The position numbers and the translations under genes are program-made. Source: a virus. Taken from it: DNA of 31,188 nucleotides. Position 1 is the first letter of the stretch. Every line of letters begins with the position of its first letter. The notes under the pieces are model-generated. The model was given only the letters and a program-made list of their open reading frames with translations, was not told the DNA's origin and made no database searches. Location of the stretch: positions 1 through 31,188 of IMG/VR virus record IMGVR_UViG_3300007735_000602; one strand, given 5' to 3'. Shown one piece after another: positions 7,039 to 13,402 of this stretch.

Positions 7039-8202
7039 ATGAAATTTCTATCAGTTTGCAGTGGGATTGAGGCGGCAAGTGTCGCCTGGCATCCATTGGG
7101 CTGGGAATCGGTGGCTTATTCGGAGATTGAGCCGTTCCCTTGCAAGGTGTTGCAGCACCATTACCCAACCGTGCCCAACTTGGGCGACATGACCAAATTT
7201 AAGGAGTGGCCTGATGCAGATGTCGATGTTTTCGTTGGAGGAACACCATGCCAGTCATTCTCAGTCGCAGGACTCAGAAAAGGATTGGATGACCCGCGTG
7301 GCAACCTCATGCTTACCTATCTTGCCATTGCTAAACGATACCGCCCCAACTGGCTGGTCTGGGAAAACGTCCCCGGCGTTCTGTCCTCCGCTGGAGGACG
7401 GGACTTTGGTTCCTTCCTCGGAGGGTTGGCAGAACTCGGGTATGGGTTCGCATACAGGGTGCTTGACGCTCAATACTTCGGAGTGGCCCAGCGACGCCGC
7501 CGTGTGTTCGTTGTCGGATACCTTGGAGACTGGCGACCTGCCGCAGCGGTTCTTTTTGAGCGCCACAGCCTGCAAGGGCATCCTGCGCCGAGCCGAGAAA
7601 AGGGGCAAGAAGTTACCGCCAGCACTAGCGCAAGCCCTGTCTACGGCGGCTCAGACCCAAACACTTCCGACACCGTGACAAGCAAGTGGGCTAAAGGTAG
7701 CGGCGGGCCATTTGGTAATGAGTGCGGATTATTTGTGGCGCAAGTCATCCCCATTGACTCCATGAACCATATTGGCAGGGGCGATAAGCACAGCATGCGT
7801 GACTTTGTACCCGGCGCACCTAGCTACACATTGACCAAGGGACATAGCCATGCGGTGGCGCAACCAATCTCTTACGGCATCCCTGGCAATTGGATTGGAC
7901 GCAAGCCTGAGAACGGCGGCAACGCCACGGAGCCAATGTATGACATTTCGCCATGTCTTACCAGCGCAGATCAGCATGGTGTCGCGCAAGCAATGGCAGT
8001 ACGCCGCCTGACTCCTTTTGAGTGTGAGCGCCTGCAAGGGTTCCCTGACAAATACACCGACATCCAGCCCAAGGGCAAAGCAACTCCTGACGGGCCACGC
8101 TACAAGGCGCTAGGCAACTCAATGGCCGTCCCGGTGATGGCATGGATTGGCAAAAGAATTCAAGAGGTGGATGCGATATGCAAGACTCAACAGAAGAAAT
8201 AG
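7039..8202 (+). CDS. C5-cytosine DNA methyltransferase (orphan)
   Basis: It encodes 387 residues with the conserved C5 methyltransferase motifs in order: SAM-binding LSVCSGIEAAS, catalytic GGTPCQSFS (C71), E109-N110-V111 (WENVPG), Q151-RRRR, a variable target-recognition region at roughly 190-310, then FECERLQGFPDKYT and GNSMAVPVMAWIG (motifs IX and X). It transfers a methyl group from SAM to C5 of cytosine in a specific duplex sequence, which is not readable here. No restriction gene is nearby, so protection of phage DNA from host restriction is the likely role. It follows the terminator, has no strong Shine-Dalgarno, and overlaps the primase gene by 25 bp. Confidence 0.95.
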   Translation: MKFLSVCSGIEAASVAWHPLGWESVAYSEIEPFPCKVLQHHYPTVPNLGDMTKFKEWPDADVDVFVGGTPCQSFSVAGLRKGLDDPRGNLMLTYLAIAKRYRPNWLVWENVPGVLSSAGGRDFGSFLGGLAELGYGFAYRVLDAQYFGVAQRRRRVFVVGYLGDWRPAAAVLFERHSLQGHPAPSREKGQEVTASTSASPVYGGSDPNTSDTVTSKWAKGSGGPFGNECGLFVAQVIPIDSMNHIGRGDKHSMRDFVPGAPSYTLTKGHSHAVAQPISYGIPGNWIGRKPENGGNATEPMYDISPCLTSADQHGVAQAMAVRRLTPFECERLQGFPDKYTDIQPKGKATPDGPRYKALGNSMAVPVMAWIGKRIQEVDAICKTQQKK

Positions 8203-10247
8203 CCAAGGCCCTTGGCAACGCCAAAAAGGTGAACGGGAACTGGCTTGCAAGCTGCCCTGTTCCTGGGCATGGCCGAGGTAACGGGGATAAGAACCCGTCG
8301 CTATCCATCAAGGAAGACAATGGCAAGTACCTGTTCCACTGCCACGGTGGCTGCGACCAGAACTCTGTATTCGATGCTGTCAGGGAGCGCAACCTATTGC
8401 CAGCACTTCAGCGCCAGGAGTACAGTCTCGCGCTCATTAAAGGTGAATTGATGACTATGCCAACGCTGGAGCAGGAGTGGGAGTACAAGGATGAGCAAGG
8501 CGAGACGCTGTTCGTCAAGCGCCGGTTCAAGACCAACACCGAGAAGGGTAAGACGTACTCGCTGCACAAGGTGGATGCCGCTGGCAACCGCAAGGGCAGC
8601 ATGACAGGTGCGCGGATAGTGCCATACCGGCTGCCTGAATTGCTGAACGCCAAGGAAGCTGGACGCGCCATCTACCTGGTTGAGGGTGAGAAGGCAGCGG
8701 ATGCCTTGGTCAGCATAGGAGCCATTGCCACAACGTCACACGCCGGTGCTGGGCACTGGCCGGAGGACATTACCCAATACTTTGTCGGCGCGGTAGTGAT
8801 AGTGGTTCCGGACTGCGATGCGCCAGGCTGGAAGTACGCCAAGCGGGTGGTGGAGGCGTTGCTACCTGTAGCTAAGGCGGTGCGCGTCCTAGACTTCAAT
8901 CTGCCAGAGTTAGGTGACGATGCCTACGAGTGGGTGCAGGATGGAGGGGACAGGGCCAAGTTGGCAGAACTAGCCAAGGCGCTGCCCGTCATCACCGACA
9001 TCAACCAGGTGCAGACACCCGAATGGATTGTTCCACGGGAAACGGTTGAGGAAGTGCAGGCGCTACCCGAGGAAGAATTACCCATCCTAATCCCGCGCCA
9101 GCTTCTCAACATCGAGCCGTGGGACTCGATTGAGGATGAGCCGGTAGAGTGGCTGATTCAGGATGTTCTACCTAAAAAGGCATTCGCCGCCCTATACGGG
9201 CCGCCAGGCAGTTACAAGTCATTCGTGGCCTTGGACATTGCCGAGGCGGTGGCGACGGGCAGGACGTGGATGGGGAGGGAGGTGCAGTCGGCAGGTGCGG
9301 TGCTATATATCTGCGGGGAGGGATTCGGCGGCATCGGCGCACGCATCAAAGCCTGCAAAATGCACAACGCCACGCAAGCTGGTGCTGAAATCTACGTCAT
9401 CAGGGCGGCCATCAACATGAGATCGAGCGCCGAGGATTTCGAACTGCTGGTGGCCTCGATCAAGGACCTGATGGACAGGACGGGCGTGCAGTTTGAGCTG
9501 GTGCAGATTGACACCTTAGCTAGAGCGTTTGGCGGTGGCAACGAGAACAACAGTGAGGACATGGGAGCGTTTATCCACAACGCGGGACGTATTCAGCGGA
9601 TGCTGGGATGCGCCATGATGGTGCTGCATCACAGTGGCAAAGACGCCACCAAGGGATTGCGGGGACATAGTTCTCTCCTCGGAGCCGTGGACACTCAACT
9701 CGAGCTGCTGAAGATTGACGCGCAACCAAACCCGTCCAGCCCGATAGCTGGCAGTGGAATCCTGACCATTAGTAAGCAGAAGGACGGCCAGGACGGGCTG
9801 AAGATAGGCTTTGAGATGGTCAAGGTGGAGATTAAGGGAAGCGCACTAGGCATCAGCGACGCGCAGATTAGCTTGGCCGTGAGGGCAAGTGACGAGGCGA
9901 TGCAGCAGCAGGCGCAGGCCGATGCAGTGCAAAGACAAGACAAACCACGCAAGCTGCAGGAAAACCAGCAGGTCGCCCTGAACGCTATCCACAAGGCACT
10001 GGAAAAGAATGGGCACATGACAAACGTTGGGAACGAGCGCCACAAGACAGTGTCTATTGCCGAGTGGAAGGAGGAGTTCGTTAAGCTGAAGGGTGACAGC
10101 CAGAGCATTAACACGGACTTTTACAAGGGCAAGAAGTCGATGTTCGCCAAGGAATTGGTGGGATACCACAAGACGGATGTGGCGGAATACGTCTGGGTGA
10201 TCTACCCCGACAAGGATAAAGATGAGCCGTTTGTGGCCTCATTCTGA
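8178..10247 (+). CDS. Primase-helicase (zinc finger, Toprim, RecA-like ATPase)
   Basis: It encodes 689 residues. A primase zinc motif comes first (C26, H31, C55, C59: SCPVPGH and FHCHGGC), then a Toprim domain with E169 (VEGEKAADAL) and D212-x-D214 (PDCDAPGWKYA), then a RecA/RepA-type ATPase with Walker A GPPGSYKS (341-348) and a hydrophobic-Asp strand (ELVQIDTLARAFG). It would prime and unwind phage DNA at the fork. The start ATG 8178 is preceded by GAGGTGG; an upstream ATG at 8142 adds 12 residues out of keeping with the fold. It ends immediately before the repeat array, consistent with acting there. Confidence 0.92.
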   Translation: MQDSTEEIAKALGNAKKVNGNWLASCPVPGHGRGNGDKNPSLSIKEDNGKYLFHCHGGCDQNSVFDAVRERNLLPALQRQEYSLALIKGELMTMPTLEQEWEYKDEQGETLFVKRRFKTNTEKGKTYSLHKVDAAGNRKGSMTGARIVPYRLPELLNAKEAGRAIYLVEGEKAADALVSIGAIATTSHAGAGHWPEDITQYFVGAVVIVVPDCDAPGWKYAKRVVEALLPVAKAVRVLDFNLPELGDDAYEWVQDGGDRAKLAELAKALPVITDINQVQTPEWIVPRETVEEVQALPEEELPILIPRQLLNIEPWDSIEDEPVEWLIQDVLPKKAFAALYGPPGSYKSFVALDIAEAVATGRTWMGREVQSAGAVLYICGEGFGGIGARIKACKMHNATQAGAEIYVIRAAINMRSSAEDFELLVASIKDLMDRTGVQFELVQIDTLARAFGGGNENNSEDMGAFIHNAGRIQRMLGCAMMVLHHSGKDATKGLRGHSSLLGAVDTQLELLKIDAQPNPSSPIAGSGILTISKQKDGQDGLKIGFEMVKVEIKGSALGISDAQISLAVRASDEAMQQQAQADAVQRQDKPRKLQENQQVALNAIHKALEKNGHMTNVGNERHKTVSIAEWKEEFVKLKGDSQSINTDFYKGKKSMFAKELVGYHKTDVAEYVWVIYPDKDKDEPFVASF

Positions 10248-10470
10248 TAGCCGACTTGTGAAGTTGGCTATGAAAACATGGCAAGCTGGCTATGTAATAT
10301 TGTTTGAAAAACATAGCCGACTTGTAAAAACATGGCAAGCTGGCTATGTGCAAGTCGGCCAGAAATAGGTAGTCGGATAGCCGACTTTCATAATATTGCT
10401 TAATGCAATATGAAGTCGGCTAGTCGGCTATCTCGGAATTTTGGAAGTTGGCTATGTTGGAAGTCGGCTA
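10248..10470. repeat. Array of 12 copies of a 10-bp motif, candidate origin or iteron region
   Basis: Twelve copies of AAGTCGGCTA or its reverse complement TAGCCGACTT, with up to two changes, fill the space between two genes. Forward-type TAGCCGACTT: 10248, 10314, 10378. Reverse-type: 10261 (AAGTTGGCTA), 10283 and 10337 (AAGCTGGCTA), 10352 (AAGTCGGCCA), 10370 (TAGTCGGATA), 10413 (exact), 10421 (TAGTCGGCTA), 10445 (AAGTTGGCTA), 10461 (exact). Many are followed by TG, giving a 12-bp unit. AT-rich stretches lie between copies. Such arrays usually bind a replication initiator or regulator; the nearby primase-helicase favours an origin. Function is inferred. Confidence 0.85.
10378..10422. repeat. 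Imperfect cruciform inside the array
   Basis: The exact motif TAGCCGACTT (10378-10387) pairs over 10 bp with AAGTCGGCTA (10413-10422). Inside, ATATTGC (10393-10399) pairs with GCAATAT (10405-10411) around a 5-base loop (TTAAT), with a small bulge on the left arm. This makes the longest inverted repeat of the array, AT-rich at its centre. Confidence 0.75.
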
Positions 10471-10485
10471 TGGAAAGGTTTAGAG

Positions 10486-11133
10486 ATGGCAACGAAGAAA
10501 CTTACGGATAGGGACGTTTTCCCGTCGGACCTTTTCAAGGTCTTTGAGCATTCGCTAATGGTCGAGATGGAGACGGAGAAGATGGAGCATGAGAGGGTAT
10601 GGGGAATAGACCGAGTGATTGACCTGGTGGATGCAGAGTTCCGCAGGAAGTTCAACGCGCAGCGGGAGCGCATCTGGGAGGCCAGCAGGGCGAGGGACGA
10701 GGAACGGCTAGAAAAGGCCATCAGGGGGATGATCGCGGCCTACAAGGCGCTCACCAGGTGGGCGACTGAGGCAGACATAGAGCAGATGCCTAAAATCGAT
10801 TGCATGGAGTACCGGATGGGTGACGGAAGCCTGATGGTCATCGTCAGGAATAAACAGATGGCGACCTGGTACGAGCAGTTCCGCAAGGAGCCAAACCCGA
10901 GATCGGTTTGGACACTCGCGGAACTCGAGGTGGTGATGAACGGTCCGACTCTGAAACAGGTGAGGGAGATCAAGGCAGCATTACCTGGTTCGACGATGGT
11001 TCCCGTTGAGGCGCAAGGCTCCAGCGGGTTTGAGGACATGGAGAACGACATTGACATCAGCAAGCCGTTCAAGGGCGGGAAGATGTTTGATACGAAGGCA
11101 GCAGAAAGGGATAAGAATGAGCGCAGGAAGTGA
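10486..11133 (+). CDS. Conserved-looking phage protein of unknown function
   Basis: It encodes 215 residues, hydrophilic and mostly helical, with a charged N-terminal half (DAEFRRKFNAQRERIWEASR) and a middle strand region (YRMGDGSLMVIVRNKQMATW). No catalytic motif or membrane helix was seen. The start at 10486 lies just after the last array repeat (16 bp) and is preceded by GGAAAGG; the open frame extends back through the repeats from a TTG, which I consider non-coding. Being directly behind the array it could be the protein that binds it, which is only a positional idea. It overlaps the following 26-residue ORF by 17 bp. Confidence 0.8.
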   Translation: MATKKLTDRDVFPSDLFKVFEHSLMVEMETEKMEHERVWGIDRVIDLVDAEFRRKFNAQRERIWEASRARDEERLEKAIRGMIAAYKALTRWATEADIEQMPKIDCMEYRMGDGSLMVIVRNKQMATWYEQFRKEPNPRSVWTLAELEVVMNGPTLKQVREIKAALPGSTMVPVEAQGSSGFEDMENDIDISKPFKGGKMFDTKAAERDKNERRK

Positions 11134-11197
11134 TTTGTGGGATGCGGTGGTGCGTAGGGTGCTTGAGACTACAAAAAACGCTTGGAGGGTCGCGTAA
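11117..11197 (+). CDS. 26-residue micro-protein before the terminase
   Basis: It encodes 26 residues (M-S-A-G-S-D-L-W-D, then an amphipathic helix ending WRVA). AAAGGG lies about seven bases upstream of the ATG. The stop overlaps the terminase small-subunit ATG as TAATG, so it fits the coupled-gene pattern of this genome. It may serve only to pass ribosomes to the terminase gene. Confidence 0.5.
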   Translation: MSAGSDLWDAVVRRVLETTKNAWRVA

Positions 11198-11643
11198 TGC
11201 CAGGGAATCCGAAGGTGAGAGCAGACCTAGCGCTGCTGGAGGACATCGACGACGAGTTAATCCTTTCGATGTTTGAGGATGGGCGTAGCAAGGCAGACAT
11301 ATGCCGCGGCCTGGGCATCGGACGGCGTGCGCTTGAGACGTGGATAGCGGATAACGACTACGAACCTATAATTACGCGCGCGCGGGTGGAAGCTGCCTCG
11401 CATCTCGCTTGCGAGACACTCGCCATCGCTGACGGCATGGACATCGACAACGCGCAGCGCGACGTGCAGCGCATCCGGACGCGCCAGTGGCTGGCGGAAC
11501 GCTGGGATCGCAAGACTTATGGCACTGAAAAGGCGCAGGCGGTGAACATCAGCATCCAAGGATTGCGGATGGAGGCTCTGCGCCACGTCGAGGTAGTTGA
11601 GCAGTTATCCACAGACCGGATGCCAAAGTTGTCCACAGAATGA
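11197..11643 (+). CDS. Terminase small subunit
   Basis: It encodes 148 residues. The N-terminal half is a helix-turn-helix (MFEDGRSKADICRGLGIGRR then LETWIADN) typical of small terminase subunits that recognise the packaging site; the C-terminal half is helical (VQRIRTRQWLAERWDRKTYG), as in oligomerising small terminases. It would bind phage DNA and recruit the large subunit encoded next. I chose the ATG at 11197 because GGAGG lies eight bases upstream and the codon overlaps the preceding stop. Its last 40 bp contain two DnaA-box-like 9-mers. Confidence 0.85.
   Translation: MPGNPKVRADLALLEDIDDELILSMFEDGRSKADICRGLGIGRRALETWIADNDYEPIITRARVEAASHLACETLAIADGMDIDNAQRDVQRIRTRQWLAERWDRKTYGTEKAQAVNISIQGLRMEALRHVEVVEQLSTDRMPKLSTE
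11605..11637 (+). promoter_or_regulatory. Pair of DnaA-box-like sites
   Basis: TTATCCACA at 11605-11613 is a perfect consensus DnaA box and TTGTCCACA at 11629-11637 differs at one base; they are 24 bp apart in the same orientation. A weaker TTATCAACA follows at 11824-11832. They sit in the end of the terminase small-subunit gene, where both encode Leu-Ser-Thr, so coincidence is possible. A single perfect box also occurs inside the primase gene (9571-9579). Confidence 0.35.
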
Positions 11644-11974: not shown

Positions 11975-13402
11975 ATGTCTTCCAAAAAAAATTTTGAGAA
12001 TCCCGAGAACCCGTTTATCGAGTTCGCCCTACGCTACCGGAACGACCCCGTGCTGTTCGTGAAAGAGGTGCTGAACACCGAACCGGATACTTGGCAAGTA
12101 GAGTTCCTGAATCACATCGCGGCAGGAAACCGACGCATTAGCGTACGCTCCGGCCACGGCGTGGGCAAGTCAACGGCCAGCGCCTGGGCGATGCTGTGGT
12201 ATCTGTTCCTGCGCTTCCCTGTCAAGATTGTCGTTACAGCGCCAACGTCAAGCCAACTTTACGACGCGCTGTTCGCGGAACTGAAGCGGTGGGTTAAGCA
12301 GTTGCCGCCGATGCTGCAAGATCAGTTGGACGTGAAGCAGGACAGGGTCGAGGTCAAGGAAGCGCCCAACGAGGCGTTCATCTCGGCCAGGACCAGCCGA
12401 GCAGAGCAACCCGAAGCACTCCAAGGCGTCCACAGCGACAACGTGATGCTGGTGGCCGACGAGGCATCTGGTATCCCCGAGGCGGTGTTTGAAGCCGCCG
12501 CAGGCTCGATGTCGGGTCACAAGGCGGTCACCCTGCTGCTGGGTAATCCGGTGCGCTCCACGGGTTTCTTCTACGACACCCACAACAGGCTGAAGGATGA
12601 CTGGGTGACGATGAAGGTGTCCTGCGCCGACTCGCCACGGGTAAGCCAGGCGTACCTGGAGGAGATGAAAGCGCGTTACGGGGAAGAGTCCAACGCCTAC
12701 CGGATCAGGGTATTGGGAGAGTTCCCGCGCTCAGATGACGATACTGTCATCCCGATGGAGCTACTGGAGATGGCGCAGCAGCGAGATGTCCAGCCCAGCG
12801 AGTCAGCGCCAATGGTCTGGGGTCTGGACGTTGCGCGGTTTGGCAGTGACAGGTCGGCACTCTGCAAGCGCAAGGGGAACGCCGTGACCGAGCCAATCAA
12901 GACATGGAAGAACTTGGACCTGATGCAGCTAACAGGCGCGGTGGTCTCCGAGTACGAGTCCCTACCGCCATCCGAGCGACCTACAGAGATTCTGGTGGAC
13001 AGCATCGGCTTGGGCGCGGGAGTGGTTGACCGGCTGCGGGAACTGAATCTCCCCTGTCGCGGCATCAATGTCTCCGAGTCACCCGCGATGGGAGCGACGT
13101 ATCGGAATCTGAAGGCCGAGTTATGGCACAAAGCCAAAGCCTGGCTGGAGGGTCGGGACTGCAAGATGCCAAAGGATGAGGCGCTGGTGTCCGAGTTGGC
13201 TATCGTGCGATATTCGTTCACCAGTTCGGGGAAGATTCAGATTGAGGGCAAGGACGAGATCAGGAAGCGCGGTTTCCCGAGTCCTGATAGGGCAGACGCC
13301 TTTTGCCTTACGTTTGCAAGTGACGCGGTGATCGGAGCGTTTGGCGGGGCTAAAGTGTCCTGGAACAAGCCACTGCGCAGGAATCTGCCTCGCGTAGCAT
13401 AA
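11975..13402 (+). CDS. Terminase large subunit
   Basis: It encodes 475 residues. The ATPase part has Walker A SGHGVGKS (59-66) and Walker B VMLVADEAS (D162, E163). The RNase H-like nuclease part has WGLDVARFGSDRSAL (D285), ILVDSIGLGAGV (D342) and a late SPDRADAFCL acidic motif. It cuts concatemeric DNA and pumps it through the portal. An in-frame stop lies three codons upstream, so ATG 11975 is the first possible start, although no Shine-Dalgarno precedes it. It resembles terminases of podovirus-like and marine or freshwater phages. Confidence 0.95.
   Translation: MSSKKNFENPENPFIEFALRYRNDPVLFVKEVLNTEPDTWQVEFLNHIAAGNRRISVRSGHGVGKSTASAWAMLWYLFLRFPVKIVVTAPTSSQLYDALFAELKRWVKQLPPMLQDQLDVKQDRVEVKEAPNEAFISARTSRAEQPEALQGVHSDNVMLVADEASGIPEAVFEAAAGSMSGHKAVTLLLGNPVRSTGFFYDTHNRLKDDWVTMKVSCADSPRVSQAYLEEMKARYGEESNAYRIRVLGEFPRSDDDTVIPMELLEMAQQRDVQPSESAPMVWGLDVARFGSDRSALCKRKGNAVTEPIKTWKNLDLMQLTGAVVSEYESLPPSERPTEILVDSIGLGAGVVDRLRELNLPCRGINVSESPAMGATYRNLKAELWHKAKAWLEGRDCKMPKDEALVSELAIVRYSFTSSGKIQIEGKDEIRKRGFPSPDRADAFCLTFASDAVIGAFGGAKVSWNKPLRRNLPRVA

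Follow-up and report, generated by a model that had tools for sequence, protein, structure and literature searches.

A probable phage replication origin whose iterons change together with the C-terminal domain of the adjacent primase-helicase

Positions 10248–10485 of the window (the whole stretch of DNA that was analysed, 31 188 nucleotides of IMG/VR virus record IMGVR_UViG_3300007735_000602) are, with a probability of about 0.8, the replication origin of the phage, comprising iterons that would be read by the winged-helix tail of its own primase-helicase and a hairpin that would serve in priming, with tail and array forming a swappable module. The repeat array keeps its architecture among relatives while its sequence turns over, nearly exclusively in step with the C-terminal domain of the primase-helicase; swaps of domain and array between protein backbones were observed, and the inner stem of a long hairpin covaries between motif classes.

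Twelve copies of TAGCCGACTT, counted on either strand with at most two mismatches, lie at positions 10248–10470; this array and the hairpin elements described below were annotated without a strand. Copies start at 10248, 10314 and 10378 in forward orientation (three) and, as AAGTCGGCTA, at 10261, 10283, 10337, 10352, 10370, 10413, 10421, 10445 and 10461 in reverse orientation (nine), those at 10248, 10314, 10378, 10413 and 10461 being exact. In the whole 31 kb window 38 matches were observed against 19.9 ± 4.4 in shuffled sequences, so about 0.14 copies are expected per 223 bp; by our own arithmetic, the Poisson probability of at least 12 copies in such a stretch is about 1e-19. The dense array of twelve copies given in the preliminary description was therefore confirmed, as was the statement that it fills the intergenic stretch, since it begins directly after the primase-helicase stop codon (10245–10247) and stops 15 bases short of the ATG (10486) of a gene for a 215-aa protein. 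The AT content is 58% (window about 46%), with AT-rich spacers and no single distinct tract. Most reverse copies had been said to extend to AAGTCGGCTATG; five of the nine run on into CTATG, and just one is exactly AAGTCGGCTATG. The earlier remark on irregular spacing unlike that of CRISPR stood: copies occur in both orientations, and regular repeats with unique spacers were not found in the array. Missing from it was that the copies are largely paired as inverted repeats, not merely scattered, and that hairpins are present at 10247–10271 and 10378–10422. The former is an inverted iteron pair, ATAGCCGACTT-GTG-AAGTTGGCTAT, with a 3-nt spacer. A near-palindromic element, ACATGGCAAGCTGGCTATGT (repeat family D1), lies at 10276–10295, with a second copy at 10330–10349.

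The palindrome TAGCCGACTT..AAGTCGGCTA (22 bp) was also seen on well over ten contigs of one Acidobacteria MAG (JABFSD01; L159, L161, L163, L165, L170, L177 and others), which suggests an unrelated, abundant REP-like repeat; several cyanobacterial (Nostoc-like) genomes share a version of 27 bp.

The primase-helicase gene (8178–10247, + strand, ATG at 8178) encodes a protein of 688 residues, numbered here from the codon at 8181, with an N-terminal primase part, a RecA-type AAA_25 helicase like RSF1010 RepA, and a predicted C-terminal winged helix. Its body matches phage DNA primase/helicase families and AAA_25, and among solved structures only the RSF1010 helicase RepA (1g8y, E 1.2e-4) is related to it by sequence. 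The linker between the primase and helicase parts (9036–9100, residues ~286–305) is hypervariable and indel-rich and does not follow array class. A cytosine DNA methyltransferase gene (7039–8202) lies directly upstream and was matched in only 27 of the loci examined, many of these matches being partial. To the right of the array lie the 215-aa gene (10486–11133, + strand), terS (11191–11643, ~700 bp downstream of the array) and terL (11975–13402). The 215-aa protein has no Pfam or PHROGs match; it is kept beside the array in relatives and occurs in two N-terminal versions, mixed among array classes.

Relatives were collected by a primase-helicase search of viral contigs, which gave 71 loci, and by a profile search, which added a second group at ~60% identity. 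The array set comprised 82 loci (the window and 81 with the same gene order), each taken from the primase stop to the 215-aa homologue; the relatives' contigs are metagenomic. No near relatives of the primase-helicase were found in bacterial or archaeal genomes or isolated phages in the collections searched, and none of the prophages or host genomes encodes a relative. Isolated phages gave no DNA match and only ~25–40% identical helicases, and four such distant relatives that were inspected have no array of this kind directly after the gene. In Vibrio phage 1.210.O, a RepA-like helicase gene is followed, one gene further downstream, by an intergenic stretch (L207 5400–5600) with several TGTCCG repeats, distributed over both strands, and a CCCCTATATATAGGGG hairpin; this stretch is possibly an analogous origin. 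The ~36-kb relative contigs (L199–L202; records G001 and G007) have direct repeats of ~125 bp at their ends, as circular assemblies should; because long relatives measure ~35–36 kb, the window (31 188 bp) is probably incomplete. Contig IMGVR_UViG_3300020042_003659 carries the primase/array/215-aa region twice, the two copies being inverted (L150 1976–2022 and 6749–6795), which reflects either an assembly chimera or a duplication.

An array adjoined the primase-helicase in 81 of 81 usable relatives, in agreement with the earlier suggestion of clustered initiator-binding repeats (iterons) beside a replication gene. The repeat sequence differs by lineage, and the 82 loci fell into 12 motif classes, all copies in an array having changed together: A, the class of the window (TAGCCGACTT); B (TAGGCAACTT/TAGTCAACTT); C (TGGTCAACTT/TACCCAACTT); D (CTAGGCAACTT); E (GCGTATAGTTTT); F1 (GTATGCA) and F2 (GTATGTA); G (TACGCAACT); and, in the more distant group, H1–H4 (TCAACGAATGG, TAAACAAATGG, CCTACAAATGG and CGACAAATGG), whose arrays consist mostly of direct repeats (in H2 with a period of 11 bp). 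The commonest 7-mer of each class is enriched 87- to ~1,900-fold in the array relative to flanking DNA. The exact TAGCCGACTT 10-mer occurs five times per record in six long type-A relative records (35–44 kb), always within the array, and was absent from eight long relative records of other types. A search of relatives for the motif, as had been proposed, accordingly found the array still beside the primase-helicase but the motif itself absent from most close relatives. To read this absence as a refutation, as the preliminary description had done in advance, is misleading, since the motif is replaced in register together with its probable reader. Twelve metagenomes hold at least two array classes each, so that classes coexist within one sample. 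Hybrid arrays were also seen, with TAAACAAATGG and CCTACAAATGG copies mixed in L117 and TACCCAACTT copies mixed with TGGTCA copies in L024, L026 being listed with them; these arrays (L117, L024/L026) look like intermediates in motif turnover. Satellites sharing the array were rejected after scans for class A and class G inverted pairs, which returned almost only primase-carrying contigs, the other inspected hits being single terminator-like inverted repeats.

Coupling was assessed by Mantel tests of pairwise array distances (alignment-free, both strands) against the distances of each protein. For classes A–G, rho was 0.82 with the C-terminal domain (last ~100 residues) and 0.78 in a partial test given the helicase (P 0.002, the floor of 500 permutations); it was 0.16 with the primase part and 0.43 with the helicase part (301–594), whose end reaches into the coupled region. 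No coupling was found in these classes for the 215-aa protein (0.14), TerS (−0.01), TerL (0.05), the HTH protein (0.05) or the SSB-like protein (−0.08). The 215-residue and HTH proteins, which had been put forward as binders, were therefore rejected as readers of the array in favour of the C-terminal domain. In 50-residue windows, the correlation with the array lay at 0.05–0.22 up to residue 550 (0.22 at 501–550), rose to 0.81 at 551–600 (0.81–0.84 over 551–650) and was 0.75 beyond. Over the first 40 residues of the right-hand neighbour it fell to 0.13; because the gene of this 215-aa protein starts 15 bp from the array, it served as a control for simple linkage. Residues 595–688 contained 34 of the 40 columns most informative on array class. 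In the H group the order was unchanged and the contrast less marked (C-terminus 0.84, helicase 0.69, others 0.34–0.52).

Pairwise identities followed the same division. A class A and a class F2 phage were 96.3% identical over residues 1–550 and 31.9% over residues 595–688, and their arrays differ; two class A phages were 84.6% identical over residues 1–550 and 93.6% in the tail, with the same array class. The same crossing of backbone and tail identity was seen in A/G, B/E and others, and within most classes the tail is ~90–100% identical while the rest of the protein drops to as low as ~85%. These crossings show the C-terminal domain and the array travelling together between backbones; as judged from sequence comparison, they are exchanged as one module, unlike the remainder of the protein or the genes nearby. 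The coupling is correlational and partly aided by adjacency, the C-terminal domain abutting the array so that linkage contributes to the association; the right-hand neighbour is uncoupled, but is one control only.

The coupled domain (residues 584–688; 9930–10244, + strand) is predicted to be a winged helix. The C-terminal 105 residues of the window protein were modelled by AlphaFold2 with a mean pLDDT of 83.6 as helix-strand-strand-helix-helix-strand-strand (helix 11–27, strands 29–33 and 36–42, helices 43–54 and 60–73, strands 77–81 and 86–90). The class F2 domain, 37% identical, gave a pLDDT of 80.0 and the same element boundaries, the two models not being independent because most of the alignment is shared. 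The best solved Foldseek matches were largely winged helices (MukE/MukF, F93, MecI, ORC) and weak (best E 0.03), the best viral matches were parts of primase/AAA proteins of other uncultured phages, and a sequence-based family search with the domain returned chance-level hits only. The predicted recognition helix (residues 643–656; 10107–10148, + strand) holds array-linked residues: N644, T645, F647, Y648, K649, K652, S653 and A656 are within the 40 most array-class-linked columns. This coevolution strongly supports the step in which the winged-helix tail would bind the iterons.

The long nested hairpin at 10378–10422 has as outer arms the inverted iteron pair 10378–10387/10413–10422, and its inner stem pairs 10393–10399 with 10405–10411 around the loop TTAAT (10400–10404), with an asymmetric 5' bulge at 10388–10392. 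A recognisable long hairpin is present at the array core in nearly all of the 82 loci, three (L059, L129 and L134) falling outside the loop patterns used. In the inner stem, outside the iterons, compensatory changes between motif classes keep Watson–Crick pairs through double changes, with A-T, T-A and C-G all seen at several positions. The loop is TTAAT or near it across classes, and the bulge recurs with 2–5 nt (3–4 nt in most classes), often with CA. The covarying inner stem and kept loop argue for a single-stranded or cruciform form in use. Folded as single-stranded DNA, the array stretch gave z = −8.6.

So stable a fold, together with the compensatory changes in the stem, might also be expected if the array were transcribed and its + strand folded as a functional RNA. 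The raw fold energy favours the + strand (−101.6 vs −69.3 for the − strand), but this advantage is gone under dinucleotide control, where the strands fold about equally (+ vs −: window −8.6 vs −8.2; class B −6.1 vs −9.7) and no special + strand signal is left, and the RNA element was rejected on this ground. Stem mismatches are not mainly G-U, an Rfam search gave no match to the array, and an RNA need neither change all copies together nor track a winged-helix domain; such an element is very unlikely. A packaging (pac) site read by the small terminase is even harder to maintain: terS and terL are close by, but neither TerS (rho −0.01) nor TerL (rho 0.05) follows array class, and the absence of TerS coupling led to its rejection.

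Regulation was also considered, with the tail or another phage protein binding the repeats as an operator array for the 215-aa gene, terS, terL or its own gene, and replication starting elsewhere. The array does occupy the place of a promoter for the gene that follows, winged helices often act as regulators, and the C-terminal coupling reveals a reader, not the process served. This account is nevertheless unlikely, as the putative reader is fused to a primase-helicase, twelve sites and a long conserved hairpin exceed the usual operator, and a hairpin with a covarying stem and conserved loop is given no role. Scarcely credible is a mobile recombination block that spans the C-terminal codons and the array with no functional coupling between them. 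One crossover can carry both, since they adjoin, yet the gene on the right, just as close to the array, has been reshuffled against it, the pair is kept within most classes while the rest of the protein diverges, and many array-linked residues lie on the predicted recognition helix.

The reading as an origin is preferred, and origin activity of the array is probable from what the fused primase-helicase does. The winged-helix C-terminus would bind the 10-bp iterons, mostly as inverted pairs, and this binding would load the RecA-type (RSF1010 RepA-like) helicase and open the DNA beside its own gene. Unwinding would bare the long hairpin with its conserved TTAA(T) loop, which by analogy would most likely give the fused primase a structural, ssi-like site at which to start or prime. 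Recognition domain and array would constitute one specificity module swapped between phages by recombination. A GC-skew switch at the array, proposed earlier as a check, was found neither in the window nor in three 36-kb relative records, so that GC skew is uninformative on the origin, for or against. With at least 12 motif classes on closely related replisomes, diversification may keep coexisting phages independent of one another, or let them escape parasites or nucleases directed at the origin. More tentatively, and with rather more doubt than belief, the system may be a previously undescribed initiation type in freshwater phages (primase, RepA-type helicase and winged helix with iterons and an ssi-like hairpin) that has been swapped into many mutually independent coexisting types, driven by origin-directed competition or parasitism between phages.

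A probable origin, and the exact domain that would read it, can thus be named in a phage group known only from metagenomes. The 12 natural pairs of DNA motif and putative winged helix on one replisome scaffold are a ready set for work on the evolution of origin specificity, and can be used to ask whether origin diversity lets phages evade each other, satellites or nucleases that target origins. They are also a warning that an origin with its architecture kept and its sequence changed can be overlooked when relatives are searched for a conserved motif.

Several known systems share features with the present one. As in iteron origins, short repeats are clustered beside the gene of the putative initiator and change with its predicted DNA-binding domain. 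P4 alpha is a single protein made up of primase, helicase and a winged helix at the C-terminus; it binds origin repeats and then unwinds and primes (PMC4234260). The same three parts are joined here, the winged helix being predicted. The P4 alpha helicase is of SF3 type; that of the window is RecA-type AAA_25 and RSF1010 RepA-like. A long covarying hairpin is present here and is not described for P4 in the part of PMC4234260 used, and a second repeat region (crr) was not found, the exact motif occurring in only one array in the six type-A records of 35–44 kb. At RSF1010 oriV, RepC acts at iterons, RepA unwinds and RepB' primes at the ssi stem-loops ssiA/ssiB (PMC4234260). The RepA-type hexameric helicase (1g8y, E 1.2e-4) and iterons of this IncQ system recur here, and the conserved hairpin may be the counterpart of its ssi stem-loops, but its three separate proteins correspond to initiator domain, helicase and primase fused in 688 residues, and the primase part is of another type. 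In Sulfolobus pRN1, the primase-helicase ORF904 has a C-terminal winged helix, and an essential stem-loop kept in structure but not in sequence lies directly downstream of its gene, a similar arrangement having been proposed for Bordetella phage BIP-1; no iterons were found for pRN1, and the authors detected no specific binding (PMC4234260). A primase-helicase with a (predicted) C-terminal winged helix, and a stem-loop just after the gene with structure kept without sequence, were likewise found here, but prim-pol and SF3 helicase are lacking and iterons are present. The present system therefore shares features with P4 alpha, RSF1010 and pRN1, and lacks a defining feature of each.

For the turnover of the array, the best precedent, by analogy, would be the V. 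cholerae PLE, in which an iteron origin covaries with the DNA-binding domain of its initiator, the remaining protein is conserved, initiator and origin must be cognate, and coupled swapping was shown experimentally and attributed to pressure from an origin-directed nuclease (PMC8263062). Here too, the predicted DNA-binding domain and putative ori swap together between otherwise conserved proteins. The PLE modules are of two types and belong to a satellite whose RepA_N initiator is a protein of its own, in contrast to 12 classes on the phage's own fused primase-helicase, whose predicted fold is unrelated to RepA_N. Lambdoid phages have type-specific O/ori pairs; lambda iterons lie inside the O gene, and O is without primase or helicase. 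Lambdoid O is a phage initiator acting on iterons beside an AT-rich region (PMC7466680). A phage initiator would likewise be paired with iterons here, but the array lies outside the gene and its putative reader is fused to the primase-helicase. Coupling of initiator and origin thus has precedents in PLE RepA_N/ori and lambda O, and what looks new is that primase, RSF1010 RepA-type helicase, winged helix, iterons and hairpin are combined, and that 12 specificities coexist.
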